A stretch of DNA of 64,000 nucleotides from Buxus sempervirens (lineage: Eukaryota > Streptophyta > Magnoliopsida > Buxales > Buxaceae), in contig OX387193.1 of the NCBI GenBank assembly GCA_947561395.2, forward strand, positions 14,632,001 to 14,696,000, written 5' to 3'. The notes beneath the pieces are model-generated. The model was not told the origin of the DNA. It did not search any database and worked only from the letters and a program-made list of their open reading frames with translations. Positions 7,575 through 64,000 of the stretch are shown one piece after another (positions within the stretch are counted from its first letter, which is position 1; every line of letters begins with the position of its first letter). A program made the translations under genes and the position numbers.

Positions 7575-8094
7575 CAAGAGCATTTCCTCCTTCCTCCTTT
7601 CCTGCCATTCCCTAAAAGGAAAACTGTCCTCAAAAGGCCCAAATCAGAAGTCTGAAATCACCTAAAAGCTTTAATGGAACAAACAAGAGAAAGAAAAAAT
7701 TGTTGAGTGCTTTGCAACAACGTCGAAACAGGTTGGTGAGCTCAAGTCCAACCCCTTCTTTCAAAAAACTCAAGATAAATACCAAGGAGTTGCTTCAGAA
7801 AACCCGAGACTTAAGGGTAAGCAAGCTCGAAAGCAAGAAAGTGGAAGCCATTGGGTGTTTCCCTTTCATTGAAAAAAATCCAAAGCAAGAAAGTGGAAGC
7901 CATTGGGTGTTTCCCTTTCGCTGAAAAAATCCAAAGCCAGGAGATGGAAGCCATTTCATGTTTCCCTCTCATTGAGAAAAAGATCTGAAAAAGTTTAAGC
8001 TCACCAATCATGTCGACAGAAATGCTGGGCGCAAAAACGAGGTTCTTCTTTTTCCTTGCCGTTCATCCCCAAGGTGACTCCGGCAAAGAAGGAC
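7575..8094. other. Unassigned stretch with a small exon-like frame
   Basis: It lies between two Tat-type LTRs. A plus-strand frame reads LLSALQQRRNRLVSSS and on to KELLQKTRDLR before a donor-like AG/GTAAGC near 7815. It is rich in Lys, Arg and Gln and I do not recognise it. A 52-bp tandem repeat follows. It may be a fragment of a captured gene or internal sequence of a Tat-type element. Confidence 0.25.
7831..7985 (+). repeat. 52-bp tandem repeat, three copies
   Basis: Units start at 7831, 7883 and 7934, each with AGTGGAAGCCATTGGGTG-like and TTTCCCTTTC words. The third copy is the most diverged. Confidence 0.8.
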
Positions 8095-11075: not shown

Positions 11076-12700
11076 CCAATTAAATAACCTAATTCTATAC
11101 GCTGGGAATACCAATTGTATTCTTGCTCGTATTGAACAGCCGCAAGCGACAGTCACTCGGTCGAGAACAACTAAGGAAGAAGAGGAAGAAGGGAGGATGC
11201 CTAGTTTGTGTTCTTCATCGTCCAGGGAGTATCTCACGTCTGTGAGTATTGCTGCTTAGAGAGAGAAGGAGAAACAACGCACCAATAGAGGTAGGTGACA
11301 CCGTTTGATCGATTGTTTGTATTTATGTTCGTTTAATCTCCAAGGCATGTTTTTATGTGATATATTGATGTATTTAGTTTGATAACAATGTTATATGTAT
11401 GTTAGAATGATATTGGACGAGAAAAAACATGTTTTGAAACGTTTCTGTTAGTTTTTGGAGGACCGCCAACCTCGACTGTGCTCGGCGCTCTTAGGCGCTA
11501 GTTAAAATTTTTAGACCGCTGAAGATCGCGAGACGACTTATCATCGGCGATCGAAATTTCACTACTGCCAACCTTTGACCGCCGGGGCGATCCTAGGTGC
11601 TCTGTGCAGAAATTGCAGATTTTTGTAATTTCGAACCTGATTCAATTCCAAACCATTTTTAGACAATTTTAATCATTAATTAAGATGTTTTAAGACCAAA
11701 ATAAATTATTCAATTTCCTGTTTTATAGAAAAATAAATTAGGAAGATATTTAGGACATTAGTTGCCAAACTTTGAACGTAATTGAGAAATCTAGTTTTTG
11801 GAAAACTTGACTTTTATTTAATTACCAAAACATCTTTTAAACCACACTATAATTCAGAGAATTACAGAAAGAGAATTCAGATCATAAATTCAGAACTCAG
11901 TTAACCCAAGTATTGAAGTAAATGTCAAATTTAACCTTTATATGCCGCTAGGCATCAACCCTTATAGAAATATTATATATTAGGGAATTTTGGAGTCTAG
12001 TGGGCATAGCTGGTTATGGATCCATAGTTGTTGCTAGATAGCTGAGGGATATGTCATTTGGGTTGAGTTTCTCCCTTGTGCGACGCGCTTCCTTTGCAAG
12101 TTAGTTTGCCTAGGAAGGTCCTATGTTTGGAGGGACACCCTGGTGAGCCGCTAGTGATTCCCTGTACATGTGGATAAGCGACCATTTCCATGCATTGATT
12201 CTGGTGCTGCATGCTGGTGGTACATGCCAACTCTGATGGGTACGTGTGCAATAAGTCAGTGACTACGTCTCTTGTTTAAGCTGCGCTGCATGGGACTTGA
12301 GTATCATTAGTAGCATTGCTCCTAAGACGCACGGTGGTATAGCGGTTGGTCGAGAGTCATCTCAAAAGGTTTATCTATCTTTGTGAGTCCTACAATGACA
12401 CGAAAATCATAAACACTTGATATTATTATTGTATACATGCTGGAGGCATGTGATTGAGATATTGGTCGGATGTGACTGTTTAGTGTACCCTAGCATAGTA
12501 TGGATTATGTTATTGATTCTAATATTGGATTCCTGTCATGGAACTTGCTGAAATTCATATTCTGAGCTGTTTAACTATACTATTTTGTATTCATGATTAA
12601 TACGAATGATTATACGAGCCTGCTTAGTCGATATTGCTTAATCGTGTTTGAATTGTTATTTTCTTATATGAACTGTTTAAACATGCATGTGTTACCTATT

Positions 12701-12741
12701 GGGATATTCGTATCCCACCCTACTTTTATTTCATTTTTCAG
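12701..12741 (+). promoter_or_regulatory. Stem-loop with compensating change plus 3' splice acceptor
   Basis: GGGATA-TTCG-TATCCC forms a perfect six-pair stem. LTR A has GAGATA-TTCG-TATCTC in the same place, so both sides of one pair differ and pairing is kept. TTTTATTTCATTTTTCAG follows, ending at 12741. Confidence 0.6.
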
Positions 12742-12830
12742 TTGATACGCGAGAAGGGGATCATAGTGATTTCCAAGGAGAGGTAGCTGAGTATTCATCG
12801 GAGGATTACTTTTACCCGGATATTGTCTGA
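12741..12830 (+). other. Short conserved frame after the LTR acceptor (family B)
   Basis: Read from the acceptor G as first codon base, the frame gives VDTREGDHSD and ends SSEDYFYPDIV. LTR A has a frame in the same phase starting DTRGEA and ending REEDYYYLP. The acidic/Tyr end is kept in all B copies seen (EDYFY or EDFYY). It could be the last coding exon of a small LTR-encoded protein or an RNA-level constraint. Confidence 0.4.
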
Positions 12831-13977: not shown

Positions 13978-15556
13978 TGGTTTATACCCTAATCGTATAC
14001 GTTTTGAAATACCCTTCTTATTCTACAGCCGCAAGCAACAGTCGCACGACCAAGAGCGACTATGATTGACAGAAGAAGAAAGGAAGAAAAGAAGAAGAAA
14101 GGAGAGGGTTTTCTTCATCCCAAGAGTAGAGTTTTACGTTAGTAATCATTGCTGTTCAAGAGGAGAAGGAGAAACCAAGCGAATAGAGGTAGGTGACACC
14201 GTTTGATCGATTGATTTGTATTTATGTGTGTTTAATCTTCAAACCATGTTTTTATGATGTAGATATATGTATTAAGCATGATATAATCGTTATAAGTATT
14301 GTGGAATTGCTTAGAATAGGAAAAATCACATTTTGAAACTGTTTCTGTTCATTTTTGGGGGACTGCCGACCTTGACTGTGTTCGGCGATCCTCGGCGCTA
14401 GTTAAAAATTTGAGACCACCGAAGATCGCGTGAAGACTTATCGTCGGCGATCTAATTTGCACTACCGCTGACCTTAGACCGCTGGGGCGATCCTAGGCGC
14501 TCTGTGTAGACATTTCAGAATTTTGTAATTTCGAACCTGATTCAATTCCAAACTATTTTTAGTAAATTTTAATGATTAATTAAGATGTTTTAAGACCAAA
14601 ATAAATTAGGAAGATTTTTAGGACACTAGTTGCCAAACATTGTTTAAAACTGTGAAATCTAGTTTTTGGAACACTTGACTATTATTTAAATTCCAGAACA
14701 TCTCTAAATTACACTATAAACCAGATAATTACATAAAGAGAATTCATAACTCATTTAAACCCAAAATATTGAAGTAATTGATAGATTTAACCTTTATATG
14801 CCACTAGGCACCAACCCTTATAGAAATATTATACTTTAGGGAATTTTTGGAGTCTAGTGGGCATAGCTGGTTATGGATCCATAGTTGTAGCTAGATAGCT
14901 GAGGGATATACCATTTGGGTTGAGTTTCTCGCTTGTGTGACGCGCTTCCTTTGCAAGTTAGTTTGTTCGGGAAGGTCCTATGTCTGGAGGGACACCTCGG
15001 TGAGCCGCTGGTGATTCCCTATACATGTGGATAAGTGACCATCTCCATGCATTGATTCTGGTGCTGCATGCTGGTGATACATGCCAACTCTAATGGATAC
15101 GTGTGCAATAAGTCAGTGACTACGGCTCTTGTCTAAGCTGTGCTGCATGGGACTTGAGTATCATTAGTAGCATTGCTCCTAATACGCACGATGGTATAGT
15201 GATTGGTCGAGAGTCATCTCAAAAGGTTTATCTATCTTTGTGAGTCCTACAATGACACTGAAATCAAAAACACTTATTATTATTGTATACATGCTGGAGG
15301 CATGTGATTGAGATATTGGTCGGATGTGATTGTTTAGTGCATCCTAGTAACGTGTGGATTTTGTTATTGATATTGATATTGGATTCCTATAATATATAAT
15401 ATGCTGAAATTCATCTTTAGAACTGTTTATCATACTGTTTTGTATTCAGGAATGATACGGATGATTATACTAGCCTGCTTAGTCGAGATTACTTAATCGT
15501 GCATGAACTGTTATTTTACTTATATTAACTGTTTAAACATGCATGTGTTACCTACT

Positions 15557-15598
15557 GGGATATTCTTATCTCACCCTACTTTTATTTCATCTTTTCAG
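15557..15598 (+). promoter_or_regulatory. Stem-loop and 3' splice acceptor, left LTR of B
   Basis: GGGATATTCTTATCTC (15557-15572) is a slightly weaker stem than in the other copies. It is followed by a T-rich tract and CAG ending at 15598. Confidence 0.45.
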
Positions 15599-16071: not shown

Positions 16072-16178
16072 AATGGTCCTAATCTTAGATAGCCAGCTTT
16101 AGGGGAATGGGATTGTGAGTAAGCTAGGTAGAACCCCTAGAATTAATGGATTCTAACAAGTGAATTTGTATTTTACAA

Positions 16179-16863: not shown

Positions 16864-17187
16864 TGTAACGCCCCGGATCCGTGTTGTTCATTAAAGATAT
16901 AACACGTCTCACGGAGGTTAGGCAAGGATCGTTAATCAATTTATGATCGCTGGATAATCATACATCTATAACCTGACAGAGTGCACATTTCCATTTATGC
17001 AAAATTGTAACATTTAAACTAAACTGGAATCATATGGTTCATCCCCAATTTACTTTAATACATCTCAATTAATTCAAAGTTCTCAAATTCGGAACAGATA
17101 ACCTACAAGTCTAAGGAAGGTAATAGTAGTCTTCCTCCCTATATGCCTCAGCAGGATCTACCCCAGTAATCGCCTCACCACGAGTAT

Positions 17188-17228
17188 CTGAAAAACAGAA
17201 CAACAACAGAGTGAGATACGAATATCTC
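17188..17228 (-). promoter_or_regulatory. Stem-loop and acceptor of solo LTR A
   Basis: Read on the minus strand, GAGATA-TTCG-TATCTC (17228-17213) is followed by a pyrimidine tract and CAG ending at 17188. The donor is CAG/GTGAGTAG with the intron starting at 18757, so the predicted intron is 1570 bases, against 1571 in both LTRs of element A. Confidence 0.55.
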
Positions 17229-18179
17229 AGCGAGTAGCACATGCATGCAGAAATAGTTGAATCACATTTTAAAACTATGCATCGACAACACTACAATACG
17301 TTTAAACAACCAACATAAATTTCCCAAGTTCAAATCAAACAAATCACATCTCAGTTAAGTACAATAACACATCGATTGGTCAATGTCATGACTATCGTTT
17401 AGTTGATAAATTAAACATGCCAAGTAGACACTCCACACCTCCATGTACACAGTTCCGGCCTACTCAGGGTTTCGGATACTCTGAAATGACGGCCTACTCA
17501 GGGTTTCGTCATCCAATGCAGGCCTACTCCCCGGGTTTCTGCATTGACAACCAGGCCTACTCAGGGTTTCTGGCTGCTCTACACCGGTCGTGGCAACACA
17601 CAAGGCCATGCAATTCCAAAAACCAACAATAACATCACATTACTAAGCTTAAACATCTGGATCCAGGACAAGCTAGACCAAAACAGTAAAACATCGTATA
17701 ATCTCAATACCAATATCAAAGAAAAACCATTCATTTCATATCATGTAAAACTCATCACAATTCATCACCTGTCCCTCTGGACCAAGCAGTACCTCAAGTA
17801 CATTCAGTAATTTCTCATTTCCGTAACACAATTCATATGGAAGTAACACTCAATGCATTCATACCAAGGAAATCCTTTCAATACATTTAAAGTTTCCAAC
17901 AAGCGAAACCAGAAATACAATAACTTCTCAGTCAAAACAGTGTATAGAACAAGGAAAAGCAATTGGTAACTCTTACTAGTTTGGTGTCCGGCACAATACT
18001 CATAAGTAACCTAAACTCAACTTAAAAACTCTTAAGATGTTCACTAATTTTTCCTCTAATAATTTCATAGGCAAAATGGTTTCCCAGGTTCCTAACCAAG
18101 TGAGTAGTGAAGTGGTTTAACCCCTAAGTAATACAAATACTCTTGGTCAAATCAGAAATTCCATTTTAGTAAGCAAAAT

Positions 18180-18450
18180 AGGTCTGCCGCTCACTTACTG
18201 AGGTGGGCGCGAGGTGAGCGCCGGTCGGCGGTGAAGAAAAAGGGTAAAATCGACCTGCCGCTCACCCGACGCTAGGTGAGCGTGAGATGAGCGCGAGATG
18301 GGCGTGAGGTGGGCGCGAGATTCGCGCGAGATGGGCGCATCGTTTTCTACTTCGCGCGAGATGAGCGCCAGCCGGGCGCGAGCTCGGCAGTAGGTCGTTG
18401 TTAACGGGGCGCCTACCTCTGAGGTGAGCGCCGGTGAGCGCGAGGTGAGC
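18180..18450 (-). repeat. CpG-rich word array of solo LTR A
   Basis: A dense block of GTGAGCG, GGGCGCGAG and GCGCGAGATG words in an otherwise A/T-rich LTR. It matches 45591-45865 in element A. Confidence 0.75.
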
Positions 18451-19350
18451 GGATACCCCCTGTGGTTTTCATTTCTCTGTTATTTTGAGATCTACATGAC
18501 TGGCCGGTTTGTGAACCTCTGTAATGGTTCTACTACACTCCTAATACTCCCAGAAAACTTCCCAACCATATTTGGAATTAATCTAAACACTTTCATTTTC
18601 AAATATAAATTAAATCCGGAGACTCTGTTCATGTAACTTCCCGAAAACCAGAAAACCCAGAAAACTCACACTATCACTTTATATATAACCCATGCATCAG
18701 AATAATCTCGAGAGAAACGGAAAACACAAATCCCAGTTGTAAATCAGTGCTACTCACCTGAGTGCGCTTATTCCCGAATGGTAAAACCTCGGCCGATCAC
18801 TTCTCCGGCCATGCACGCGAATGAAAAATCTACCAAAACTAATCTTCTCGAGCAGAGAGAAATAACCCAATGAACTTCAGCTCCAAAACCCTTCTTTTAG
18901 CCCTTGCGATTCTTGTTCTTCACGAACAGAAACCCTAGTCGCCTCTCCAGCCGAAATCGCGAGTTCTCCTGATGTCCAGACTTAACGAAAATGTTTCCCA
19001 AATTATGATAAGCGTATTCTCATAACCCAACCCTACTTTCCATTTTAGTACACTTACTTGATACATACGCGCTCGAATACTATCCCATTTCCTTGATCCT
19101 ATGCATGCTCGCCCACCGAAGATACTACATGTTCAGCATCTATTCGCGTTAATAATCACATAACTATACTTTAATACTAACAATGATTATATTACGATTT
19201 TTCGAAAAAATGGCTATATAACGCCTGTACATACGAGTATGGGCTAAGCCCTCAAACCACAAAATAACCTGATAAACACAGTTTATACATCAGAATAAAT
19301 AACTAAATAAATAAATAAATAACTCACAAAATTCAGGGTCTTACAAGTAT

Positions 19351-34166: not shown

Positions 34167-35240
34167 GTGACATGTAACCATGGACTTTTTGTCTGGATTG
34201 CCTTTGACAGCAAAGAAGGAGGATGCTATTTGGGTTACTATTGATAGACTAACTAAGTCAGCACATTTCTTACCTATGAGCACTACACAGCAGTTGAAGT
34301 CTTTAGCTGAATTGTATGTCAGAGAGATAGTGAGACTTCATGGAGTGCCAGTATCCCTAGTGTCTGACAGAGATGCACGATTCACGTCACACTTTTGGTA
34401 TGCATTTCAGGCAACATGGGCACGAAGCTTAGTTTCACTACCAGCTATCATCCTCAAACAGAATGACAGTCTGAGCATATCATTCAGACATTAGAAGATA
34501 TGCTGAGGTGTTGTGTTATGGATTGGGGAGGCAGTTGGAATCAGCACCTGCCATTGGTGGAGTTTGCCTATAATAATAGATATCAGGCGAGTATTCAGAT
34601 GGCACCATTTGAGGCACTATATGGCAGAGCGTGTAGATCCCAAGTGTGCTGGGTGGAAGTTGGAGAAAGACAACTTATTGGGCCGCAAATTGTACAGGAG
34701 AATATTGAAAAGATAAATTAGATTATGCAGAATATGCTTACAGCCCAGAGTCGTCAAAAGAACTATGAAAACACTAGAAGGAGGGATTTGCATTTCGAGA
34801 TTGGTGATTCGGTATTTCTGAAGATATCTCCATCTCGTGGGATTAAGAGATTTGGCAAGAAAGGGAAGTTGACTCTGAGATATATAGGTCCATTTGAGAT
34901 TGTGGATACAGTGGGACTGGTGGCATACAAATTGGCATTGCTTGCACAGCTGGAAGGAGTTCATGACGTATTCCATGTTTCTATGTTGAGGAAGTACGTG
35001 CATGACCCTACTCACATCATCCAGCATGAGCCACTGGTAGTGCAAGGGGACTTGACATATGAAGAACATCTGGTTGAGATCTTGGACAGACGAGAGCAAG
35101 TCCTACGTACTAAAGTAATTCCACTAGTGAAAGTGCTTTGGCAAAATCACACAGTTGAGGAGGCCACTTGGGAGTTGGAGTCAGAAATGCAGAGGAAGTA
35201 TCCACATCTATTTCCAAAGTTGCAAGGTAAATTTCGATGA
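34167..35240 (+). pseudogene. pol: Integrase and chromodomain-like tail of element B
   Basis: Integrase core motifs are seen in order: MDFLSGLPLTAKKEDAIWVT with IDRLTKSAHFLP, LVSDRDARFTSHFW, then [20 protein letters not shown], the KKYGK-like [37 protein letters not shown], and a tail [20 protein letters not shown]. This closing tail is the reduced chromodomain of Tekay/Del-type elements, thought to guide integration to heterochromatin. It runs directly into the polypurine tract. Fossil, a few breaks. Confidence 0.9.
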
Positions 35241-43555: not shown

Positions 43556-44682
43556 TCTAACGCTGTAAAATGATAACCATAAAATCTTCATTTCCACCTC
43601 GATTGGGGTGTCGTTTGGACCATAGCTTCTCTAACTTATATTTAACCAACTTAGACACTTTAAATACTCGGGTTTGAACAAATGTTGGTGTTGGTTACTT
43701 TTTTAACTTTCATCTTGAAGTTTTGCTTATAGGCCATCATCCATCCAATCTTTCTTTCATCCTACTTTTGCACATCTGACTATACTCTATTCTTTAATTT
43801 ACACTTACGCTTATAAACTAGTTCAAAATACAAGATGTACAATTCGATATATATTCATGCTTCCAATTTTATGTGCCATGGGCATACTCTGAAGCTTTGG
43901 GACCAACTGTTTCACATCATAAGTTCTTGGCCAAGTATCAGGTTCTATTAGAAACAAGAATCCACAGCAAGTCTCTGCACCTGATACTAACAATAAGCAT
44001 TTATCTGAAACAAGATATATATTTATGGAAAGCCCAAAAGTTGCCAGAAAACATGGAGATGGCACTATGGTTTGTGGAAGTGCAAGGTGCAAAAGGGATT
44101 ATCATGGTTAATGCATGGAATATTCCATGCGTGACTTGAACAAGTACATTAATTACAATTATCGAACCAAAGTAACAGATATATACAATCCTTCCATCAT
44201 CAAACATTTTCAAAAACCTATATCCACATGCCAAAAAAACCTACATCCACATCCAAAAAATATACATCCACATCCAAAAAAAAGAGACATCATATCCAAA
44301 AAATATACATCCACCACTGCCACTAGGGCCAATAACATGACTACAAACAGCCCTTGGACCGGGAGTGTGTGTGAGGAGGACCCCTTCTACCATCCGCTGC
44401 ACGTGGACCTAGCGCTTCTTTAGGAGCTACATGTCACTCCCCTTCTTGATCATCGTCAGCCTGACTGAGGAAAAAGTTTACCAACTCCTTGCCAGCAATC
44501 AACATTTAAAGCATCTGTATGAAAGTTCATATCTGGAGGAATCTCAACTACAAATATCAACTAGGATGCCATTAAAACTAATACAGAGCCTATGCAAAGA
44601 GTTAAGGTTATTACTGGTAGAAGTACCAATTACATCATCTTGGATTATATTGTTTTTGGTGAGTTGATTTTTATTGGGCCTA
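43556..44682. other. No recognised gene; short A/C-rich minisatellite at 44210-44315
   Basis: A/T-rich sequence without a convincing frame. ACATCCACATCCAAAAAA is repeated about four times near 44240-44310. Before the insertion of element A it joined directly to 54544. Confidence 0.5.
44678..44682. other. Target-site duplication of element A, left
   Basis: GCCTA, repeated exactly at 54539-54543 on the other side of the element. Confidence 0.95.
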
Positions 44683-45590
44683 TGTAAGACCCTGAATTTT
44701 GTGAGTATTTATTTATTTATTTAGTTATTTATTCTGATGTATAAACTGTGTTTATCAGGTTATTTTGTGGTTTGAGGGCTTAGCCCATACTCGTATGTAC
44801 AGGCGTTATATAGCCATTTTTCCGAAAAATCGTAGTATTATCATTGGTATTATTAAAGTATAGTTATGTGATTATTAACGCGAATAGATGCTGAACATGT
44901 AGTATCTTCGGTGGGCGAGCATGCATAGGATCAAGGGGTTAAAAGGGTGGATCCACCGGCGTATACATCTCGCAAGGTAAGTGTTAAATGAGCAAATAAG
45001 GGAAAGTAGGGTTTTTAGTTTTAAACGAAATACGCGTATACTTACGGAAAGATTTTCGTTAAGTCTGGACATCAGGAGAACTCGCGATTTCGGCTGGAGT
45101 GGCGACTAGGGCTTTTGTTCGTGAAGAACCATAAATCGCAAGTGCTGGAAGAAGGAGTTCGGAGCTGAAGTTCATTGGGTTATTTCTATGTGCTCGAGAA
45201 GATTAGTTTCGGTAGATTTTTCATTCGCGTGCGTGGCCGGAGAAGTGATCGGCCGAGGTTTTACCATTCGGGAATAAGCACACTCAGGTGAGTAGCACTG
45301 ATTTACAACTGGGATTTGTGTTTTCTGTTTCTCTCGAGATTATTCTGATGCATGGTTTATATATCAACTGATAGTATGAGTTTTTCTGGTTTTCTGGTTT
45401 TCGGGAAGTTACATGAACAGAGTCTCCGGATTTAATTTTATAATTGAAAATGAAAGTGTTTAGATTAATTCCAAATATGGTTGGGAAGTCTTCTGGGAGT
45501 ATTAGGAGTGTATTGGAGTAGTTACAGACCTTCACAAACCGGCCAGTCATGTAGATCTCAAAATAACAGAGAAATGAAAACCACAGGGGG

Positions 45591-45865
45591 TATCCGCTCA
45601 CCTCGCGCTCACCGGCGCTCACCTCAGAGGTAGGCGCCCCGTTAATAACGACCTACCGCCGAGCTCGCGCCCACCTCACGCTCATCTCGCGCGAAGTAGA
45701 AAACGAGGCGCCCATCTCACGCGAATCTCGCGCCCACCTCACGCCCATCTCGCGCTCATCTCGCGCTCACCTAGCGTCGGGTGAGCGGCAGGTCGATTTT
45801 ACCCATTTTCTTCACCGCCGACCGGCGCTCACCTCGCGCCCACCTCAATAGGTGAGCGGCAGACC
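45591..45865 (+). repeat. CpG-rich word array in the left LTR
   Basis: Repeated TCGCGCTCAC, CGCGCCCACC and TCGCGCGAA words at irregular spacing inside the predicted LTR intron. The block is present in every A-type LTR and stands out from the A/T-rich surroundings. Confidence 0.8.
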
Positions 45866-46816
45866 TATTTTGCTTACCGAAATGGAATTTCTGATTTGAC
45901 CAAGAGTATTTGCATTACTTAGGGGTTAAACCACTTCACTATTCACTTGGTTAGGAACCTGGGAAACCATTTTGCCTATGAAATTAATAGAGGAAAAATT
46001 TGTGAACATCTTATGAGTTTTAAGTTGAGTTTAGGTTACTTATGAGTATTGTGCCGGACACCAAACTAGTAAGAGTTACCAGTTACTTTTCCTTGTTCTA
46101 TACACTGTTTTGATTGAGAAGTTCTTGTATTTCTGGTTTCACTTGTTGGAAACTCTATACGTATTGAAAGGTTTTCTTTGGTATGAATGGATTGAGTTTT
46201 ACTTTCATATGACTTGTGTTACGGAAATGAGAAAATACTGAATGTACTTGAGGTACTGCTTGGTCCAGAGGGACAGGTGATGAATTGTGATGAGTTCTTA
46301 CATGATGTGGAATGAATGGTTTTGTTTTGATATTGAAATTGAGATTATACGATGTTTACTGTTTTGGTCTAGCTTGTCCTGGATCCAGATGTTTAAGCTT
46401 GGTAATGTGATGTTATTGTTGGTTGTTGGAATTGCATGGCCTTGTGTGTTACCACGACCGGTGTAGAGCAGCCAGAAACCCTGAGTAGGCCTGGTTGTCA
46501 ATGCAGAAACCCGGGGAGTAGGCCTGCATTGGATGACGAAACCCTGAGTAGGCCGTCATTTCAGAGTATCCGAAACCCTGAGTAGGCCGGAACTGTGTAC
46601 ATGGAGGTGTGGAGTGTCTACTTGGCATGTTTAATTTATCAACTAAACGATAGTCATGACATTGACCAATCGATGTGTTATTGTACTTAACTGAGATGTG
46701 ATTTGTTTGATTTGAACTTGGGAAATTGATGTTGGTTGTTTAAACGTATTGTAGTGTTGTCGATGCATAGTTTTAAAATGTGATTCAACTATTTCTGCAT
46801 GCATGTGCTACTCGCT

Positions 46817-46858
46817 GAGATATTCGTATCTCACTCTGTTGTTGTTCTATTTTTTCAG
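46817..46858 (+). promoter_or_regulatory. Stem-loop and 3' splice acceptor, left LTR of A
   Basis: GAGATA-TTCG-TATCTC (46817-46832) is a perfect six-pair stem with a TTCG loop. A T-rich tract ending TTTTTTCAG at 46858 follows. With the donor at 45288 the predicted intron is 1571 bases. Confidence 0.6.
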
Positions 46859-46935
46859 ATACTCGTGGTGAGGCGATTACTGGGGTAGATCCTGCTGAGG
46901 CATATAGGGAGGAAGACTACTATTACCTTCCTTAG
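46858..46935 (+). other. Short conserved frame after the LTR acceptor (family A)
   Basis: With the acceptor G as first codon base the frame reads DTRGEAITGVDP and ends YREEDYYYLP before a stop. The more distant copy at 62134 reads DLRGEAPTGVDP and ends YREEDYYYNP, with several third-position changes that leave the EEDYYY part unchanged. Family B ends EDYFYPDIV in the same phase. Coding selection is possible but unproven. Confidence 0.45.
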
Positions 46936-47184
46936 ACTTGTAGGTTATCTGTTCCGAATTTGAGAACTTGAATTAATTGAGATGTATTAAAGTAATTGGG
47001 GATGAACCATATGATTTCAGTTCAGTTTAAATGTTACAATTTTGCATAAATGGAAATGTGCACTCTGTCAGGTTATAGATGTATGATTATCCAGCGATCA
47101 TAAATTGATTAACGATCCTTGCCTAACCTCCGTGAGACGTGTTATATCTTTAATGAACAACACGGATCCGGGGCGTTACAGAGA

Positions 47185-47197
47185 TGGTATCAGAGAC
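47185..47197 (+). other. Primer-binding site of element A
   Basis: TGGTATCAGAGAC starts four bases after the LTR and matches the TGGTATCAGAGC complement of initiator Met-tRNA, with one change near the end. Confidence 0.9.
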
Positions 47198-47334
47198 TTA
47201 AACTGGAAAAATTTGAGGTTTAGGTAGTATGACCATAGAAAACCCTGGGGAAATGTTGTGCGTACGTTAGATAGAACCATGAGGATTAGAAGAGAGTTCT
47301 TAACTAATGTGGTATTTTGTGCTTACAGGTATAC

Positions 47335-50300
47335 ATGGCCGGTAGAGGCAGACGTGCGAGGACTGTGGATTGTCCAGAGAGGGATGTACCAAAGGAGCAG
47401 CCACCTGCACCACCACGGGGAGCCCCACCCCCAGTAGAGGACATTTGGGCTGCGGTTGGCTCGCTTGCCCACCTCCTTGCGATGGAGAGGGAGGAAAGGA
47501 TGAGTCAGACTGGGAATGGTAATGGCCAGCAAAATGGTCATGGAGCTGCGGTGGATCAGCAGCGGGTGAGAGAGGAGTTGTCCTTGAGGGACATTGATCA
47601 GTTCAGAAAGCTGACTGCCCTGCCGTTTTATGGAGTTCCAGATCCGTTGGAGGCAGAGAGCTGGGTAGCTAGAGTGGAGCGCATGTTTGATACGATGGAC
47701 TGTCCAGAGGACCGGAGGGTGAGATTGGCTACCTTCACCCTAGAGGGCGAGGCACAGCATTGGTGGCAGTCATTACGGAGGCAGGCGGTAGATGGGATCC
47801 AGATGACTTGGGACCAGTTTAGGCGGGTCTTTTATGAGCAGTATTTTTCTGCAGAGGTGAGGTTGCAGAAGGAGAGAGAGTTCATGGATATCTCTCAGGG
47901 ATCCTTGACCGTAGCACAGTACGAGGCTCGGTTTGCGGTTCTTTCTCGATTTGCTCACCATATAGTGCATGATGAGCAGAGGCGCACCCAGCATTTCGAG
48001 AGAGGACTGAGGGCAGACATTAGGCGCATGGTCTAGGTGTTGATGTGCACCAGATACTCAGATTTAGTGGGGAGAGCTCTGCGAGTTGAGAGAGAGATTA
48101 GAAATTCAGGGACTGAGCAGAGCAGAGTTAGAGCACAGCCGAGCGGCACAGAGACACGGAGGGTCCCGGATAGGGACAAGAGACCGAGGTTCGACTATGG
48201 ACAGAGAGATAGGAGAGGCTCAGGAGGTTGTTTCAGTTGCTGCCGATTTCACATCCCAGGTCCATGCGTGTCACCTCCAGGCGCGTGTTTTAGATGTGGC
48301 CAGCATGGGCATCGGGTTGCTGACTGTCCCCACCCGAACACTTACCAGTTACTCAAGCCAGCCCTTACTGCACCTATGGACACCCGACCGGCCGAGGCTT
48401 CGAGATTTCAGTACTCTAGACCCGTGCCAGCACTTCCAGCACCGCCGAGATTTCCGGGTCAGAGCAGTGGGGGATACCAGAGGCAGCAGTTACCGCAGAG
48501 GCAGCAGGCACCTCAGAGACGGCAGGCACCACCCCCACGCCCCCAGCAGACTAGAGTATATGCAGTAGCAGCTCAGGAGGATGAGTCTGAGGGAGGGCAT
48601 GTCGAGGAGGCTCGTGAGGAGGAGCCAGAGGCGCCACAGTTGGTTGGAGGTATTCTTTTCATTCATGGTAGATCAGCCGTATGCTTATTCGATTCGGGTG
48701 CTTCTAGATCTTTCATTACTCCTTTATGTGCATGCCGTATTGGTTTGGTTCCTTCCACACTCGAGTCCGAGCTAATTGTACACACACCATTGGGGGAAAC
48801 CACTAGAGTACAGACCGTATTTAGGGATTGCATGATCAGATTGAGTTCTTTGGAGTTGCCAGGGGACTTGGTAGAACTGGAATTCGGGGAATTTGATGTG
48901 ATCTTAGGCATCGATTGGATTTTTCGGCATCATGTGAGCATAGATTGCTATAGGGGTACCATTATGGTATGTCAGCCAGACCAGCCAGTGCACTGTTTCC
49001 GATGTGAAGGGTTGAGAACACGGATCAGTTTAGTAGCATCCATTGAGGTTGAGGAGGCAGAGTCTACGACACTTAGTCTTACTAGTGTGCCTATAGTAGC
49101 AGAGTTTGATGACATATTCCCAGACAATCTACCGGGATTACCGCCACCTAGAGAGGTTGAGTTCAGTATACGACTCTTACCTGGTACGGCACCTGTATCC
49201 AAACCACCATACAGGATGTCACAACCTGAAAACCATGAGATGAAGAAACAGTTGGATGAACTGGAAGCAAAGGGCTTTATTAGGCCCAGTGTGTCACCAT
49301 GGGGTGCACCAGTCCTGTTTGTCCAGAAGAAGGACGGGACGATGAGGATGTGTATAGATTACCGCCAGTTGAATCAAGTCACCATCAAGAATAAGTATCC
49401 ATTGCCTCGGATTGATGACTTGTTCGACCAGTTGAGGGGAGCGTCTTGGTTTTCTAAGATCGACCTGAGATCTGGATACCACCAGTTGAGAGTAGCCCCA
49501 GAGGATGTAGAGAAGACGGCTTTCTGTACTCGATATGGGCACTACGAGTTTCGGGTTATGCCTTTTGGACTGACTAATGCCCCAGCTGTTTTCATGAACC
49601 TGATGAATCGGGTGTTTCACACACACTTGGACAGCTTTGTGGTTGTGTTCATTGATGATATCCTAGTGTATTCTCGAAGTAGAGAGGATCATGTAAGCCA
49701 CCTCCGAACTGTATTGCAGACATTGAGAGAGCACAGATTGTATGCCAAGTTCAGCAAGTGTCAATTCTGGTTGAGAGAGGTGAGTTTCTTGGGGCACGTG
49801 ATTTCTGGAAATGGTATAGCAGTGGATCCCACTAAAGTGCAGGCTGTTGCAGAATGGCCTAGACCTTCATCTGTGACAGAGATTCGGAGCTTCTTGGGGA
49901 TGGCTGGATATTACAGGAGATTCATAGAGAATTTCTCACGAGTAGCCGCACCTCTATCCAATCTCACTAAAAAGGCAGTGAAGTTTGAATGGAGTGAGAA
50001 GTGTGAGAACAGTTTTCAGGAGTTGAAAGGTAAACTGTCTTCAGCTCCAGTCTTGATTGTGCCATCAGTGAGTGAGGGATTTTCGATCTATTGTGATGCT
50101 TCTCGAGTAGGGTTGGGCTGTGTTCTGATGCAGCAGAGACATGTGGTAGCCTATGCTTCAAGGTTGCTACGCACTCATGAGAAGAATTACCCTACGCACG
50201 ATCTAGAGTTGGCAGCGATCATGTTTGCACTTAAGTTGTGGAGGCACTATTTGATGGGAGCCAAATTCGAGATATTCTCAGATCACAAGAGCTTAAGATA

Positions 50301-52008
50301 TATATTTTCCCAGAGAGAGTTGAATATGAGGCAAAGGAGATGGATGGATATTCTAAAAGATTATGATTTCACACTACATTATCACCCGGGCAAGGCTAAT
50401 GTGGTAGCAGATGCACTGAGTCGTAGAGTTGTTTCTCAAGATGAGGTAGCCACACTAGCTGCTTTCATGGCTAGTCAGTGCACTCTTATAGATACTGTTG
50501 TAGAATGGCCTGGGGAGTTCAGCACTCATGGGCATGGATTGATCATGGCACGAGTTCAAGCAGAGCCAGAGTTGATTCAGAGCATTCGGGAAGGTCAGTT
50601 GGTAGATCCCGATTTATTACGCATCAAGGAGTTAGTAGAGAAGGGTGATGAGGCCACGAAAGATTTTGATGTTCGGGATGGATTGGTGAGATTTCAAGGG
50701 CGGACTTGTGTTCCAAATAATGCTGAAGTCAAGGGATTGATCCTAGACGAGAGTCACAGGTCCAAATATGCAATTCACCCTGGGAGCACCAAGATGTACA
50801 AGAACCTAAGATCAGTATATTGGTGGTCAGGAATGAAGAAAGACATTGCGGAGTATGTAGCCAAGTGCCTCACTTGTCAACAGGTAAAGGCAGAGCATAG
50901 GAGACCTCCAGGTTTGATGCGACCTTTGCCGGTTCCTGAGTGGAAATGGGAACATATATCGATGGATTTTGTGAGTGGGCTACCGCCTACAGCTAAGAAT
51001 CACAACGGCGTATGGGTGATTGTGGATAGACTAACCAGATCAGCTCACTTTTTGCCTTACCAGACCACGCAGACTTTGGCATCATTGGTAGAGCTGTATA
51101 CTCGAGAGATAGTCCGGTTGCATGGGGTTCCAGTGTCCATTGTATCGGATAGGGATTCTCGGTTTACCTCGCATTTTTGGCAGTGTTTCCAGGAGGCCAT
51201 GGGAACTAAGTTAAGCTTCAGTACTAGTTTCCACCCACAGACCGACGGCCAGTCTGAGAGAACTATTCAGACTCTGGAGGACATGTTGAGATGTTGTGTC
51301 CTGGATTGGGGTGGCAATTGGAGTAAGTATTTACACTTAGCCGAATTCGCTTACAATAATAGCTATCAGGCTAGTATACAGATGGCACCCTATGAAGCAC
51401 TTTATGGCAGGATTTGTAGATCTCCTGTGTGTTGGGTGGAGGTAGGAGAGAAACAGTACTTTGGGCCTGAGATTATACAAGATAGTATGGAAAAGGTGAA
51501 ATTGATTAGACAGCGGTTGTTGACTGCGCAGAGTCGTCAGAAAAGTTATTTAGACACCCGACGACGTGAGCTGAAATTTGAAGTGGGAGACCAAGTGTTC
51601 TTGAAGATATCGCCTTCCAAAGGAATCCTGAGATTCGGGAAGAAAGGGAAGTTGTCTCCACGCTTTATTGGGCCGTTTGAGATTGTGAAGGTGATTAACC
51701 CGGTAGCTTATAAGCTAGCTTTGCCAAACAATTTAGCAGGAGTCCATGATGTATTCCACGTATCCATGTTGCGGCAGTACATAGCGGATCCTAGTCACGT
51801 GATAAATCCTGAACCTTTAGTGATCCGAGAAGATCTGACATACGAAGAGAGGCCAGTTCAGATTCTAGATCGTCGTGAGCAGATTCTTCGCACCAAGCTT
51901 GTTCCCTTAGTGAAAGTGCTATGGCAGAATCATACTGTGGAAGAATGCACTTGGGAAGGTGAGGAAGAGATGAAGAAGAAGTATCCGGAATTGTTTGTTC
52001 CTTCTTGA
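47335..52008 (+). CDS. gag-pol: gag-pol coding region of element A (about one break)
   Basis: The start at [15 protein letters not shown] is chosen because element B begins MAGRARRARADP. Domains in order: Gag ([50 protein letters not shown]); CCHC knuckle [14 protein letters not shown] (48286-48327); aspartic protease DSGASRSF (48691); reverse transcriptase (about 49130-49900) with [32 protein letters not shown] and the active-site FIDD (48-base region ending 49659); RNase H (about 50080-50440; [26 protein letters not shown]); integrase with an HHCC zinc part (HPGSTK, CLTCQQ, about 50775-50880) and D,D,E motifs ([30 protein letters not shown], about 50960-51270); and a chromodomain-like tail ending [20 protein letters not shown]. 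It encodes particle proteins and the enzymes for reverse transcription and integration. The tail, long LTRs and family motifs point to the Tekay/Del clade. Confidence 0.95.
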
Positions 52009-52036
52009 GGTAAATTTCGAGGACGAAATTTCTTGT

Positions 52037-52048: not shown

Positions 52049-52949
52049 TGTAAGACCCTGAATTTTGTGAGTATTTATTTAGTTATTTATTCTGATGTAT
52101 AAACTGTGTTTATCAGGTTATTTTGTGGTTTGAGGGCTTAGCCCATACTCGTATGTACAGGCGTTATATAGCCATTTTTCCGAAAAATCGTAGTATTATC
52201 ATTGGTATTATTAAAGTATAGTTATGTGATTATTAACGCGAATAGATGCTGAACATGTAGTATCTTCGGTGGGCGAGCATGCATAGGATCAAGGGGTTAA
52301 AAGGGTTGATCCACCGGCGTATACATCTCGCAAGGTAAGTGTTAAATGAGCAAATAAGGGAAAGTAGGGTTTTTAGTTTTAAACGAAATATGCGTATACT
52401 TACGGAAAGATTTTCGTTAAGTCTGGACATCAGGAGAACTCGCGATTTCGGCTGGAGTGGCGACTAGGGCTTCTGTTCGTGAAGAACCATAAATCGCAAG
52501 TACTGGAAGAAGGAGTTCGGAGCTGAAGTTCATTGGGTTATTTCTCTGTGCTCGAGAAGATTAGTTTCGGTAGATTTTTCATTCGCGTGCGTGGCCGGAG
52601 AAGTGATCGGCCGAGGTTTTACCATTCGGGAATAAGCACACTCAGGTGAGTAGCACTGATTTACAACTGGGATTTGTGTTTTCTGTTTCTCTCGAGATTA
52701 TTCTGATGCATGGTTTATATATCAACTGATAGTATGAGTTTTTCTGGTTTTCTGGTTTTCGGGAAGTTACATGAACAGAGTCTCCGGATTTAATTTTATA
52801 ATTGAAAATGAAAGTGTTTAGATTAATTCCAAATATGGTTGGGAAGTCTTCTGGGAGTATTAGGAGTGTATTGGAGTAGTTACAGACCTTCACAAACCGG
52901 CCAGTCATGTAGATCTCAAAATAACAGAGAAATGAAAACCACAGCGGGT

Positions 52950-53220
52950 ATCCGCTCACCTCGCGCTCACCGGCGCTCACCTCAGAGGTAGGCGCCCCGT
53001 TAATAACGACCTACCGCCGAGCTCGCGCCCACCTCACGCTCATCTCGCGCGAAGTAGAAAACGAGGCGCCCATCTCGCGCGAATCTCGCGCCCACCTCAC
53101 GCCCATCTCGCGCTCATCTCGCGCTCACCTAGCGTCGGGTGAGCGGCAGGTCGATTTTACCCATTTTCTTCACCGCCGACCGGCGCTCACCTCGCGCCCA
53201 CCTCAATAGGTGAGCGGCAG
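52950..53220 (+). repeat. CpG-rich word array in the right LTR
   Basis: Same block as 45591-45865, with two of the few base differences between the LTRs falling at or near it. Confidence 0.8.
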
Positions 53221-54174
53221 ACCTATTTTGCTTACCGAAATGGAATTTCTGATTTGACCAAGAGTATTTGCATTACTTAGGGGTTAAACCACTTCACTAT
53301 TCACTTGGTTAGGAACCTGGGAAACCATTTTGCCTATGAAATTAATAGAGGAAAAATTTGTGAACATCTTATGAGTTTTAAGTTGAGTTTAGGTTACTTA
53401 TGAGTATTGTGCCGGACACCAAACTAGTAAGAGTTACCAGTTACTTTTCCTTGTTCTATACACTGTTTTGATTGAGAAGTTCTTGTATTTCTGGTTTCAC
53501 TTGTTGGAAACTCTATACGTATTGAAAGGTTTTCTTTGGTATGAATGGATTGAGTTTTACTTTCATATGACTTGTGTTACGGAAATGAGAAAATACTGAA
53601 TGTACTTGAGGTACTGCTTGGTCCAGAGGGACAGGTGATGAATTGTGATGAGTTCTTACATGATGTGGAATGAATGGTTTTGTTTTGATATTGAAATTGA
53701 GATTATACGATGTTTACTGTTTTGGTCTAGCTTGTCCTGGATCCAGATGTTTAAGCTTGGTAATGTGATGTTATTGTTGGTTGTTGGAATTGCATGGCCT
53801 TGTGTGTTACCACGACCGGTGTAGAGCAGCCAGAAACCCTGAGTAGGCCTGGTTGTCAATGCAGAAACCCGGGGAGTAGGCCTGCATTGGATGACGAAAC
53901 CCTGAGTAGGCCGTCATTTCAGAGTATCCGAAACCCTGAGTAGGCCGGAACTGTGTACATGGAGGTGTGGAGTGTCTACTTGGCATGTTTAATTTATCAA
54001 CTAAACGATAGTCATGACATTGACCAATCGATGTGTTATTGTACTTAACTGAGATGTGATTTGTTTGATTTGAACTTGGGAAATTGATGTTGGTTGTTTA
54101 AACGTATTGTAGTGTTGTCGATGCATAGTTTTAAAATGTGATTCAACTATTTCTGCATGCATGTGCTACTCGCT

Positions 54175-54216
54175 GAGATATTCGTATCTCACTCTGTTGT
54201 TGTTCTATTTTTTCAG
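54175..54216 (+). promoter_or_regulatory. Stem-loop and 3' splice acceptor, right LTR of A
   Basis: Identical to the left-LTR copy. In the right LTR it would act on transcripts that start in this LTR and run into flanking DNA. Confidence 0.55.
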
Positions 54217-54538
54217 ATACTCGTGGTGAGGCGATTACTGGGGTAGATCCTGCTGAGGCATATAGGGAGGAAGACTACTATTACCTTCCTTAGACTTGTA
54301 GGTTATCTGTTCCGAATTTGAGAACTTGAATTAATTGAGATGTATTAAAGTAATTGGGGATGAACCATATGATTTCAGTTCAGTTTAAATGTTACAATTT
54401 TGCATAAATGGAAATGTGCACTCTGTCAGGTTATAGATGTATGATTATCCAGCGATCATAAATTGATTAACGATCCTTGCCTAACCTCCGTGAGACGTGT
54501 TATATCTTTAATGAACAACACGGATCCGGGGCGTTACA

Positions 54539-54543
54539 GCCTA
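54539..54543. other. Target-site duplication of element A, right
   Basis: GCCTA, matching 44678-44682. Confidence 0.95.
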
Positions 54544-55619: not shown

Positions 55620-57215
55620 TCAATTAAATGACCTAAATCCTACACGTTTTGTATTTTCGCTCGTATTGAATAGCCGCAAGCAACAAACAAGACCAAGCCG
55701 AGAAGAGAAGAAGAAGAAGAAGAAGAGAGGAAGACCAGGGTTCTTCTTGCTCTGAGATTTGTTTTGCAACCGTAGAGAGGTTGGAGTGTTGCTGTTCAGA
55801 AGAGAAGAAGAGGAACGCACGTTCAAAAGGTAGGTGACATTGTTTTCGTTCGTTTTTGGTATTTACGTTCGTTTAATCGCAAAAGCATGTTTTTATATGA
55901 TCTATTGATGTATTTAGTTTAGTATCAATGTTATATGTATGATAGAATGAGATTGAACGAGAAAAATCACGATTTAAAACTGTTTCTATTCGTTTTTGTA
56001 TGACTGTCGACCTCGACTGTACTCGGCGATCCTCGGCGCTAGTTATAAAACTTAGACCGCCGAAGACTGTTGGAAGACGTATCGTCGACGTCCTGATTTG
56101 AACTACCGCCGACCACAGACCGCTGGGGCGATCCTAGGCGCTCTGTTAAAATTTTGCAAATTTTCGTAATTTCAAACCCTGATTCAATTCCAAACTATTT
56201 TTAGACAATTTTAATGATTAATTAAGATGTTTTAAGACCAAAATAAATTATCTAATTCCCTATTTTAAAGAAAAATAAATTAGGAAGATATTTAGGACAT
56301 TAGTGGCCAAACTTTGAAAGTAATTGAGAAATCTAATTTTTGGAAAACCTAACTATTATTTGATTATCAAAACAACTCTAAATGACACTATAAACCAAAA
56401 AACTTTATAAAGAGAATTCAGAACTCAGATGACCGAATATTGAAGTAATTGACAGATTTAACCTTTATATGCCGCTAGGCACCAACCCTTATAGAAATAT
56501 TATATTTTAGGGAATTTTGGAGTCTAGTGGGCATAGCTGGTTATGGATCCATAGTTGTTGCTAGATAGCTGAGGGATATGTCATTTGGGTTGAGTTTCTC
56601 CCTTGTGCGACACGCTTCCTTTGCAAGTTAGTTTGTTTGGGAAGGTCCTATGTCTGGAGGGACACCCCGGTGAGCCGCTGGTGATTCCCTGTACATGTGG
56701 ATAAGCAACCAGCTCCATGTATTGATTTTTGTGCGGCATGCTGGTGGTACATGCCAACTCTGATGGGTACGTGTGCAATAAGTTAGTGACTACGGCTCTT
56801 GTCTAAGCTGCGCTGTATGGGACTTGAGTATCATTAGTAGCATTGCTTCTAAGCCGCATGGTGGTATAGCGATTGGTTGAGAATCATCTCAAAAGGTTTA
56901 TCTATCTTTGTGAGTCCTACAATGACACTGAAATCACAAACACTTGTTATTATTATTGTATACATGCTGGATGCATGTGATTGAGATATTGATCGGATGT
57001 GACTGTTTAGTGCATCCTAGCAAAGTACGAATTATGTCATTGATTTTGATATTGGATTCTTATAATAGAACTTGCTGAAATTCATCTCTATAACTGTTTT
57101 GTATTCATAAATGATACGAATGATTACACGAGCTTGATTAGTCGATATTGCTTAATCTTGCATGGACTGCTACTTTACTCATATTAACTATTTAATCATG
57201 CATGTGTTACCTACT

Positions 57216-57256
57216 AGGATATTCATATCTCACCCTACTTTTATTTCATTTTTCAG
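57216..57256 (+). promoter_or_regulatory. Stem-loop region and 3' splice acceptor of solo LTR B
   Basis: AGGATATTCATATCTC (57216-57231) keeps most of the stem, then a T-rich tract with CAG ending at 57256. The short frame after it again ends EDYFYPD. Confidence 0.45.
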
Positions 57257-62133: not shown

Positions 62134-62176
62134 CTGAAAAACAAAGCAACAACGAGGGATGAGATACGAATATCTC
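62134..62176 (-). promoter_or_regulatory. Stem-loop and 3' splice acceptor of the A-like LTR
   Basis: Minus strand: GAGATA-TTCG-TATCTC, then a T-rich tract and CAG ending at 62134. The short frame after it ends REEDYYYNP. Confidence 0.55.
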
Positions 62177-63059
62177 AGCGAGTGACACATGCATGCAAAA
62201 ATACTTAAACACAGTTATAAACATGCTTCGATAAATAACAAACAATTTAAACAACAGATTTTCGATAACACCACAAAAAGGTCAATGTCATGCATATTGT
62301 TACATTGATTAATATACACACCAAGTAGACACTCCACAACTCCATGTACACAGTTCCGGCCTACTCAGGGTATCGGACACTCTAAAATGACGGCCTACTC
62401 AGGATATCGTTATCCAATGCCGGCCTACTCCGGGTATCGGCACTGACAACCAGACCTACTCAGTGTATCTGGCTGCTCTACACTGGTTATGGCAACACAC
62501 AAGGCCATGCAATTATACCAATAAACAAATACCATCACATTACTAAGCTTAACAAGGATCCAAAGGAAGCTAAACCCAAAACCATTAAATAACCATAAAA
62601 ACTCCGCATTCAGTAAACCCTCATTGATTTCCAACCTGTGTATCCCAATACACTCATCACAAGTTGTTCCAACCAGAACATCAACTCACACAATTCAAAG
62701 GTTCCCAACCTCACAACAACACTCTTATGTAATCAAGTTTCTCTTACTCACACAAAACCATTCAATACTTTTCAGGCATTGGATATTGAACGAAACCGAT
62801 TTATACAATTTCAAAAACAGAAAACAGATGAAGTATATACCAAACATGGCTCAATTATGTATAGGATCATAAATAGAAACATCCTACCTAGCTTCCTTCA
62901 ACTCTCCTTTCGACTAGTTCGTACTAATGTTCAGAAGGTGATTCAGTAGTCTCAAATTTTGGTTTGACTAATATAGTATTTTCTAACATCCTAACTAGTC
63001 AACAAGTAAGTACTTAAGACCCTCAAACAGTCCTCTGTATCTTATTTTTATTAAATCTC

Positions 63060-63345
63060 AACTTTCGGCAAAAGATCGGGCTTGCGCTGACCTCTACCGC
63101 TAGGTGCGAGGTCGGCGGTAAGTCACTTCTTATCAAATACATGTCGCGCTCATTTCAAAGTTACTACGCGCGAGTTGAGCGTGCGATAGGCGCGAGACTC
63201 GCGCGACATAGGCGCGAAGAAAATGAAACAGCGCGAGCTAGGCACGCGTTGAGCGCGGGCTCGGCGGTAACTCAAATTTTCATTTCGCCGACCAGGGTTA
63301 GTTGGCGCTGGGTCAGCGCTACTCGGCGAATACCCCCCTGTTTCA
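63060..63345 (-). repeat. CpG-rich word array of the A-like LTR
   Basis: GCGCGAG, GGCGCGA and TCGGCG words, diverged in order from LTR A but with the same composition and position. Confidence 0.7.
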
Positions 63346-64000
63346 TCGACTCTTCTTTAGTTCAAGATCTACACGACTGGCCGAACTTTTTCCCTCTGTA
63401 ACAATTTTCCTAGTTTCCGAACATTCCCAGAACAAATTTAAATCACTTTTGAAATTAATCTAAACACATTTTTATTTATCTCATTCAATCCTAAAGAAAC
63501 CCACACTCGAACTATCTCCTTCCAGAAAACTCATGACTATCTCATTCCAAAAAACATATGCATTCAGATTAAACTTACGAATAATACGAAAACCCAGTTT
63601 TAAAACGATGCCACTCACCTTATACGCTTCCAAGTCTTGGCAACAGCAACCCCTCGTAGAGCAAACCCCAACCAACAGTCGTTCGTCTGGTTGCTATAGT
63701 CGCCCAGATGCTCTTTTGATCACAAGAGGAAAACCTTTCTAAACTCCTTGATCACAAACACACCAAACGGCATGAACACACCAAACGGCAAGAACTCCCC
63801 CAGTTCTTCTTCTCTCCCAAAGAAAACCTAGGACAGATCGCTGCAGCCGCAATCGCCAATCGCTCGCTCTCAGTACGAGTATACACGTATTAAAAAAACC
63901 CAAACGTAATTTTCCTAAAGTATATATATATACCTTCCATAAGTAATTTTCCGCTCGATGAACATTGGAAAACCTCTGATCTGGTGTGTGCTCGCCCACC

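Follow-up and report, generated by a model that had tools for sequence, protein, structure and literature searches.

Introns are generally absent from plant LTR retrotransposons, with Ogre and EVADE given as exceptions in the excerpted account of PMC12786077. In Ogre, a Ty3/gypsy element of the Tat lineage, the intron sits between gag-pro and RT (PMC6317226) and is spliced from part of the transcripts (PMC6317226, PMC12786077). Functional introns lead to subgenomic RNAs in the Ty1/copia element EVADE and in the nematode Ty3/gypsy element Cer1 (PMC12786077, PMC10309623), the latter producing a five-exon mRNA for an accessory protein (PMC10309623). In the long leader of Diaspora, a Ty3/gypsy element of soybean, splice sites have been predicted, with two acceptors on either side of the gag-pol start codon; the description of this element, as excerpted, states that no intron upstream of gag had been reported by 2005 (PMC1142308). 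In CRM group A, pol continues into the 3' LTR, according to the available part of PMC3059260. How one retroelement RNA can serve as messenger and genome is an old question (PMC3735527). The Ty1/copia element BARE1 keeps separate RNA pools for translation and replication, which differ by capping and polyadenylation, with splicing leading to a Gag-only RNA, as far as the excerpt of that report describes them (PMC3735527).

We analysed a window of 64,000 nucleotides of Buxus sempervirens DNA (C19:14632001-14696000) and extended the searches to the 676.5-Mb host genome. The window harbors element A, like Ogre a plant Ty3/gypsy element, with candidate splice sites in its LTRs, ahead of gag and past the end of pol, whereas the Ogre intron is inside the coding region; the Ogre-type arrangement is thus absent here. 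The likeness to Diaspora concerns the splice sites predicted in the leader and around the gag-pol start; a last exon encoded by the LTR, which we propose here, is not described in the excerpted Diaspora report (PMC1142308). BARE1 likewise involves splicing in the separation of translation and replication RNAs, but in element A splicing would act by removing the replication signals. The CRM group A frame runs directly into the LTR, whereas here splicing would be needed to enter the LTR, and the predicted tail differs from that of CRM, as excerpted, in both position and letters: pol of element A stops at 52008, before the LTR, and the copies with an open pol end (CAAG, see below) run to scattered stops. 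With EVADE and Cer1 the resemblance would be in functional introns, and in contrast to the five-exon Cer1 mRNA a first and a last exon are proposed here in each LTR. The open-access PMC literature yielded no intron within an LTR of the clade that the initial annotation named Tekay, which does not imply absence from print.

Element A and the LTR copies of the window

The LTRs left A and right A belong to one insertion, element A, with the 5-bp duplication GCCTA on either side. These two LTRs, the GCCTA pair, a primer-binding-site-like TGGTATCAGAG and a polypurine-tract-like GGAGGGGAGG before the 3' LTR identify an intact LTR retrotransposon; TGGTATCAGAG is a putative tRNA-matching primer-binding site. 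Pfam matches to Retrotrans_gag (70.3 bits), Ty3_capsid (34.8 bits), RVT_1 (136.3 bits) and RT_RNaseH_2 (47.1 bits) place element A in Ty3/gypsy. Chromo (PF00385), the chromodomain model that would mark a chromovirus at the integrase C-terminus, scored 23.8 bits, slightly below its cut-off of 25.1, and the adjoining SH3_Tf2-1 scored 92.9 bits. The TAG closing gag (48034-48036) is in frame with the downstream pol frame.

Candidate splice sites occur in element A in the order D1 (donor in the LTR), A2 (acceptor immediately before gag), D2 (donor at the pol end) and A1 (acceptor in the LTR), as detailed in Table 1. The initial annotation had listed seven D1 and A1 pairs in LTR copies of the window; all seven were recovered where it had placed them, 1,410-1,571 nt apart, which confirms the observation, and numerous LTRs of several families elsewhere in the host genome have these sites too. 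It had closed the feature at 46935, which is the last base of the conserved frame after A1, the acceptor itself ending at 46858. The D1-A1 interval of LTR A contains GC-rich CTCGCGCTCACCT-like repeats (45590-45860) and multiple copies of AACCCTGAGTAGGCC (46470-46590). Within the left B element, the gag region contains the solo LTR A (16864-19344) in opposite orientation.

Table 1. Coordinates within the window of element A, its candidate splice sites and the other LTR copies
Feature	Position	Strand	Remark
Target site duplication, left of element A	44678..44682		GCCTA
5' LTR, element A	44683..47180	+	2,498 nt
Candidate exon 1 (5' UTR)	45020..45287	+	Start guessed from promoter-like sequence
D1 donor, 5' LTR copy	45288..45293	+	CAG/GTGAGT
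Inverted repeat upstream of A1	46817..46834	+	GAGATATTCGTATCTC, with overlapping branch-point-like CTCAC (46830-46834)
A1 acceptor, 5' LTR copy	46857..46858	+	TTTTTTCAG/
Frame after A1, 5' LTR	46861..46935	+	24 codons, TRGEAITGVDPAEAYREEDYYYLP, stop included
Primer-binding-site-like sequence	47185..47199	+	TGGTATCAGAG..., within the D1-A2 interval
A2 acceptor	47327..47328	+	TGCTTACAG/GTATACATG, immediately before gag
gag (Retrotrans_gag)	47335..48036	+	Terminal TAG in frame with pol
pol	48037..52008	+	Terminal TGA 52006-52008
D2 donor, pol end	52010..52015	+	GAG/GTAAAT, then inverted repeat AAATTTCG-AGGA-CGAAATTT and purine-rich tract
3' LTR, element A	52049..54538	+	2,490 nt
D1 donor, 3' LTR copy	52646..52651	+	
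A1 acceptor, 3' LTR copy	54215..54216	+	Proposed last-exon start
Frame after A1, 3' LTR	54219..54293	+	Peptide identical to that of the 5' LTR
Target site duplication, right of element A	54539..54543		GCCTA
Solo LTR A, D1-A1 interval	17188..18757	-	
A-like LTR, D1-A1 interval	62134..63618	-	
LTR B copy 1, D1-A1 interval	11291..12741	+	
Left LTR B, D1-A1 interval	14189..15598	+	
Solo LTR B, D1-A1 interval	55830..57256	+	
Left B element, A2 site	16177..16178	+	CAA in place of CAG
Family-B pol end, D2 donor	35227..35232	+	CAAG/GTAAAT, frame open in phase 1

Conservation of the donor and acceptor sites

The letters of D1 depend on the family: CAG/GTGAGT in A, AAG/GTGAGT in A-like, and GAG/GTAGGT or AAG/GTAGGT in B. 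Under an approximate donor matrix, six D1 sites ranked among the best 0.009-0.02% of positions in the window, right A being left without a separate score since its letters are identical to those of left A. Genome samples were drawn by motif or similarity, and L001, L002 and L061 in them are the window's own copies. The donor GT was kept in 30/30 family-A rows (two of them window copies), a sample favouring the best matches because the query spanned the donor, and in all 17 A-like rows, which came from 20 loci found with an acceptor-side query and include the window's own. The donor block AGGTRRGTRRCAYYGTT has 3,908 exact occurrences genome-wide, and its reversed control has 3. The candidate D1 was the top-scoring donor of its own 601-nt stretch in each of ten other LTRs (tied in L198); shuffled versions of these stretches matched the candidate's score in 1-28 of 100. 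When D1 was sought by motif in ten other families, a strict pattern found it in four and a looser one in seven, three being ambiguous.

A column table of eight family representatives showed invariant AG/GT, +5G and CA at +9/+10, whereas exon columns averaged about 44%, a table that is partly circular because five of the eight rows were located by a pattern fixing G/GT, +5G and +10A, with the -2 A left free. The comparison of splice sites with their neighbours that the initial annotation had suggested thus came out in favour of conserved sites, with that circularity attached. Conservation of the CA at +9/+10 exceeds the needs of a donor.

At A1, 98 of 100 acceptor rows drawn from the genome retain the AG. 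The motif preceding the acceptor occurs, with up to 2 mismatches, at 7,872 places versus 0 for the reversed control, and among 40 loci chosen solely by this motif a YAG stood 22-32 nt past it in 37 and a CAA in 3. A branch-point-like CTCAY preceded A1 in 94 of the 100 rows, its A lying 19-29 nt (median 25) ahead of the AG, and the interval between them was AG-free in 93; this tract varies in letters and length while remaining T-rich and AG-free. Most copies also carry the inverted repeat GAGATA-TTCG-TATCTC (46817-46832) upstream of A1, directly preceded by CATGCATG; in B copy 1 (12690-12750) it reads GGGATA...TATCCC, altered on both sides. The A1 hairpin appears in the predicted fold, yet its stability was not above that of shuffles. 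Lost acceptors are mostly changes of CAG to CAA (L156, L158, L165, L182, L203, L209 and window positions 16177-16178), which resembles decay after insertion.

Immediately before gag, family B has GATTCTAACAAGTGAATTTGTATTTTGCAG/ATG at A2 in 10/12 other copies, the remaining two carrying CAA, as does the window's copy. In family A, TTAACTAATGTGGTATTTTGTGCTTACAG/GTATACATG was found in all eight other copies, one with GTG replacing ATG. The same A2 site is present in L223, which was located purely by its distance from D2. In both families, whose letters differ here, A2 is accompanied by a branch-point-like and a T-rich sequence of its own. The unspliced leader of element A, with an assumed start at about 45020, contains 55 ATGs; joining D1 to A2 would drop 54 of them, and joining D1 to A1 alone would leave 14 between A1 and gag. 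Exon 1 itself has a single ATG in the element A copy and none in 24 of 30 family-A copies, for 5.58 expected from base composition.

D2 (AG/GTAAAT) lies 39 nt ahead of the 3' LTR and is followed by an inverted repeat and a purine tract. Its motif was found, with up to 3 mismatches, at 2,110 places versus 36 for the control. Among 40 pol ends, 20 obtained as exact matches to the D2 motif and 20 with a family-B similarity query that had no fixed motif, D2 was present in all (CAAG/ in 26, TGAG/ in 13, TAAG/ in 1, each before GTAAA), and TTGCAAGGT occurred in 20/20 of the family-B query ends. The inverted repeat (52012-52031) is conserved beyond what the donor requires, and is not kept for coding because families in which pol terminates ahead of it have it too; the predicted stability of the D2 hairpin was not above shuffles. 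A donor in the pol chromodomain, AAG/GTGAGG (51959), was rejected as a partner of A1, its GT being missing in other families.

The pol end and the frame after A1

All families of the window contain a short frame starting two bases past A1. It reads TRGEAITGVDPAEAYREEDYYYLP in A, LRGEAPTGVDPIDIYREEDYYYNP in A-like and DTREGDHSDFQGEVAEYSSEDYFYPDIV in B copy 1, each followed by a stop, and PGEDDIRGVEPVADYPEYRGEDYFVE with its stop in another family of the genome; stops interrupt it in two B copies. The frame, its phase and a tail ending ED-Y-F/Y recur across three groups. The tail pattern was matched by 76 of 98 exon copies; of the other 22, sorted by hand, ten came from one family and six from a second, five were decayed and one (L146) narrowly missed the pattern. 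A different, shorter frame (TYGEPIIAGSENLVM and variants, then a stop) follows the same acceptor in a family represented by L143, L147, L159, L163, L167, L169, L170, L173, L174 and L177.

Changes at the three codon positions were counted on trees of intact, dereplicated frames of set lengths, giving 12/14/21, 5/4/13 and 8/18/25 for 7, 3 and 7 representatives. Pooled over the three groups, 59 of 120 changes fell on third positions (p = 2.4e-4), as did 38/73 in groups B and C (p = 7.4e-4). The first group alone (12/14/21), which consists of families with a stop before D2, was not significant (p = 0.07). As a coding test, the absence of stop codons from the tails was not significant in any group (0.15, 0.28 and 0.15).

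In the 26 CAAG pol ends, the frame arrives at D2 in phase 1, as the frame following A1 requires. With the intron kept, these copies would meet their next stop at scattered distances, the shortest 4 codons and the longest more than 28; some unspliced pol frames end at a TAG ahead of the LTR, and several CAAG copies have additional stops farther upstream in pol. The last codon before D2 is open in 26/40 pol ends and a stop in 14/40, the latter being 14 of the 20 motif-sampled ends (13 TGA, 1 TAA) and 0 of the 20 family-B query ends; element A also has the stop. In families with a stop before D2, the tail would therefore need readthrough, or would be untranslated or a relic. Tracing 12 elements from D2 to A1 revealed A1 and an intact tail in four (two CAAG, two stop type), and the other eight comprised two without the AG, one with a truncated family-C-like tail and five in which A1 was absent from the stretch fetched.

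Other routes to translation of the tail were considered and rejected: exon 1 as its coding partner has in-frame stops and no steady ATG, and translation from a retained intron is at odds with the T-run before A1, which varies in length within family A.

A candidate three-exon gag-pol gene

These observations led us to propose, with a probability of about 0.6, that gag-pol is a gene of three exons for which the LTR supplies both the donor closing exon 1 (D1) and the acceptor opening exon 3 (A1), a model built from sequence comparison. Transcription would begin in the 5' LTR, and exon 1 would be a short leader ending at D1. Joining D1 to A2 would take out all of the 5' LTR downstream of D1, together with the primer-binding site and nearly all upstream AUGs. 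Exon 2 would comprise gag-pol and end at D2, whose joining to A1 of the 3' LTR would excise both U3 and the polypurine tract. Where the pol end is open, exon 3 would then give a short acidic and aromatic C-terminal tail ending ED-Y-F/Y, followed by the 3' UTR. The apparent LTR intron would arise because D1 and A1 share one duplicated sequence, and splicing between the two sites of a single LTR would be expected chiefly in solo LTRs. The full set of sites, in order, was also recognized in another element (L101), pieced together from short reads of one copy: A2 in L223, D2 in L101, D1 of the 3' LTR in L193, and A1 with an intact tail in L181.

Under this three-exon organisation the spliced RNA would be the mRNA and the unspliced RNA the genome. 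Since the introns hold the primer-binding site, the polypurine tract and U3, a spliced RNA could not be reverse-transcribed into a full element and, devoid of both replication signals, would be translatable only. This fits the lack of spliced copies: a genome-wide search for spliced pol-exon 3 copies with the family-B junction gave one match, with 3 mismatches, and one for the control, and the intronless family-A LTR junction had no match at 0 or 1 mismatch among the 1,325 places found genome-wide with up to 3 mismatches. The three-exon model predicts that such copies are missing, but they would also be missing if no splicing occurred, and we do not count the result as support.

The initial annotation had read the D1-A1 pair as an intron of about 1.5 kb lying wholly within the LTR, which would act as a leader intron and yield spliced transcripts from solo LTRs. 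Two strong and conserved sites about 1.5 kb apart speak for it, as does the occurrence of A1 in families that have no coding tail, and such splicing could coexist with the three-exon model. As the main use of the sites we nevertheless consider it unlikely, since it leaves the 14 AUGs before gag in element A and explains neither the tail frame nor A2 and D2; moreover, the D1-A1 RNA would keep the primer-binding site and could yield intronless LTRs, of which family A provided none at 0 or 1 mismatch. The LTR-intron interpretation is probably half right: a conserved donor and acceptor do lie in one LTR, but the partners that appear better supported, A2 and D2, are outside the same LTR copy. Similarly, a solo LTR possesses D1 and A1 and could splice, as had been suggested, while the main pairing would be elsewhere.

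Two further readings question the splicing or the coding part of the three-exon model. If D1, A1 and D2 were promoter, RNA-structure or reverse-transcription elements that merely resemble splice sites, this would account for conservation past the splice consensus, in the CA at +9/+10 of D1, in the inverted repeat after D2, and in CATGCATG and GAGATATTCGTATCTC before A1. We regard this as quite improbable, given that D1 varies by family yet remains the best donor of its stretch in 10/10 LTRs, that the tract between CTCAY and A1 changes its letters and length yet stays T-rich and AG-free, and that A2 has branch-point-like and T-rich sequences of its own in two families with differing letters. 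Alternatively, the exon after A1 could be noncoding, its frame being inherited by chance and translation in the open-pol families simply ending somewhere in the intron or the LTR. Consistent with a noncoding exon are the 14/20 motif-sampled pol ends that have a stop before D2, the families devoid of a tail, the non-significant stop-absence test and the unspliced frames ending at TAG before the LTR. The codon-position bias (p = 2.4e-4), the recurrence of frame, phase and ED-Y-F/Y ending in three groups, and the scatter of the unspliced stops argue against it, making it rather doubtful.

More tentatively, and at somewhat less than even odds, the three-exon organisation may be lineage-wide, with introns that hold exactly the replication signals and with splicing as the switch between messenger and genome; only the spliced RNA would then give a Pol tail beyond the chromodomain, perhaps for choosing or holding the integration site. 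If this is true, introns bearing the replication signals would answer the messenger and genome question by splicing alone. It would also explain why motifs close to the 3' LTR, and others deep inside LTRs, are conserved, and would mean that the annotation of pol falls short in some families. The D1, D2 and pre-A1 motifs lie at thousands of places in the host genome, and each solo LTR would offer a ready exon pair for splicing into, or within, transcripts of the host.
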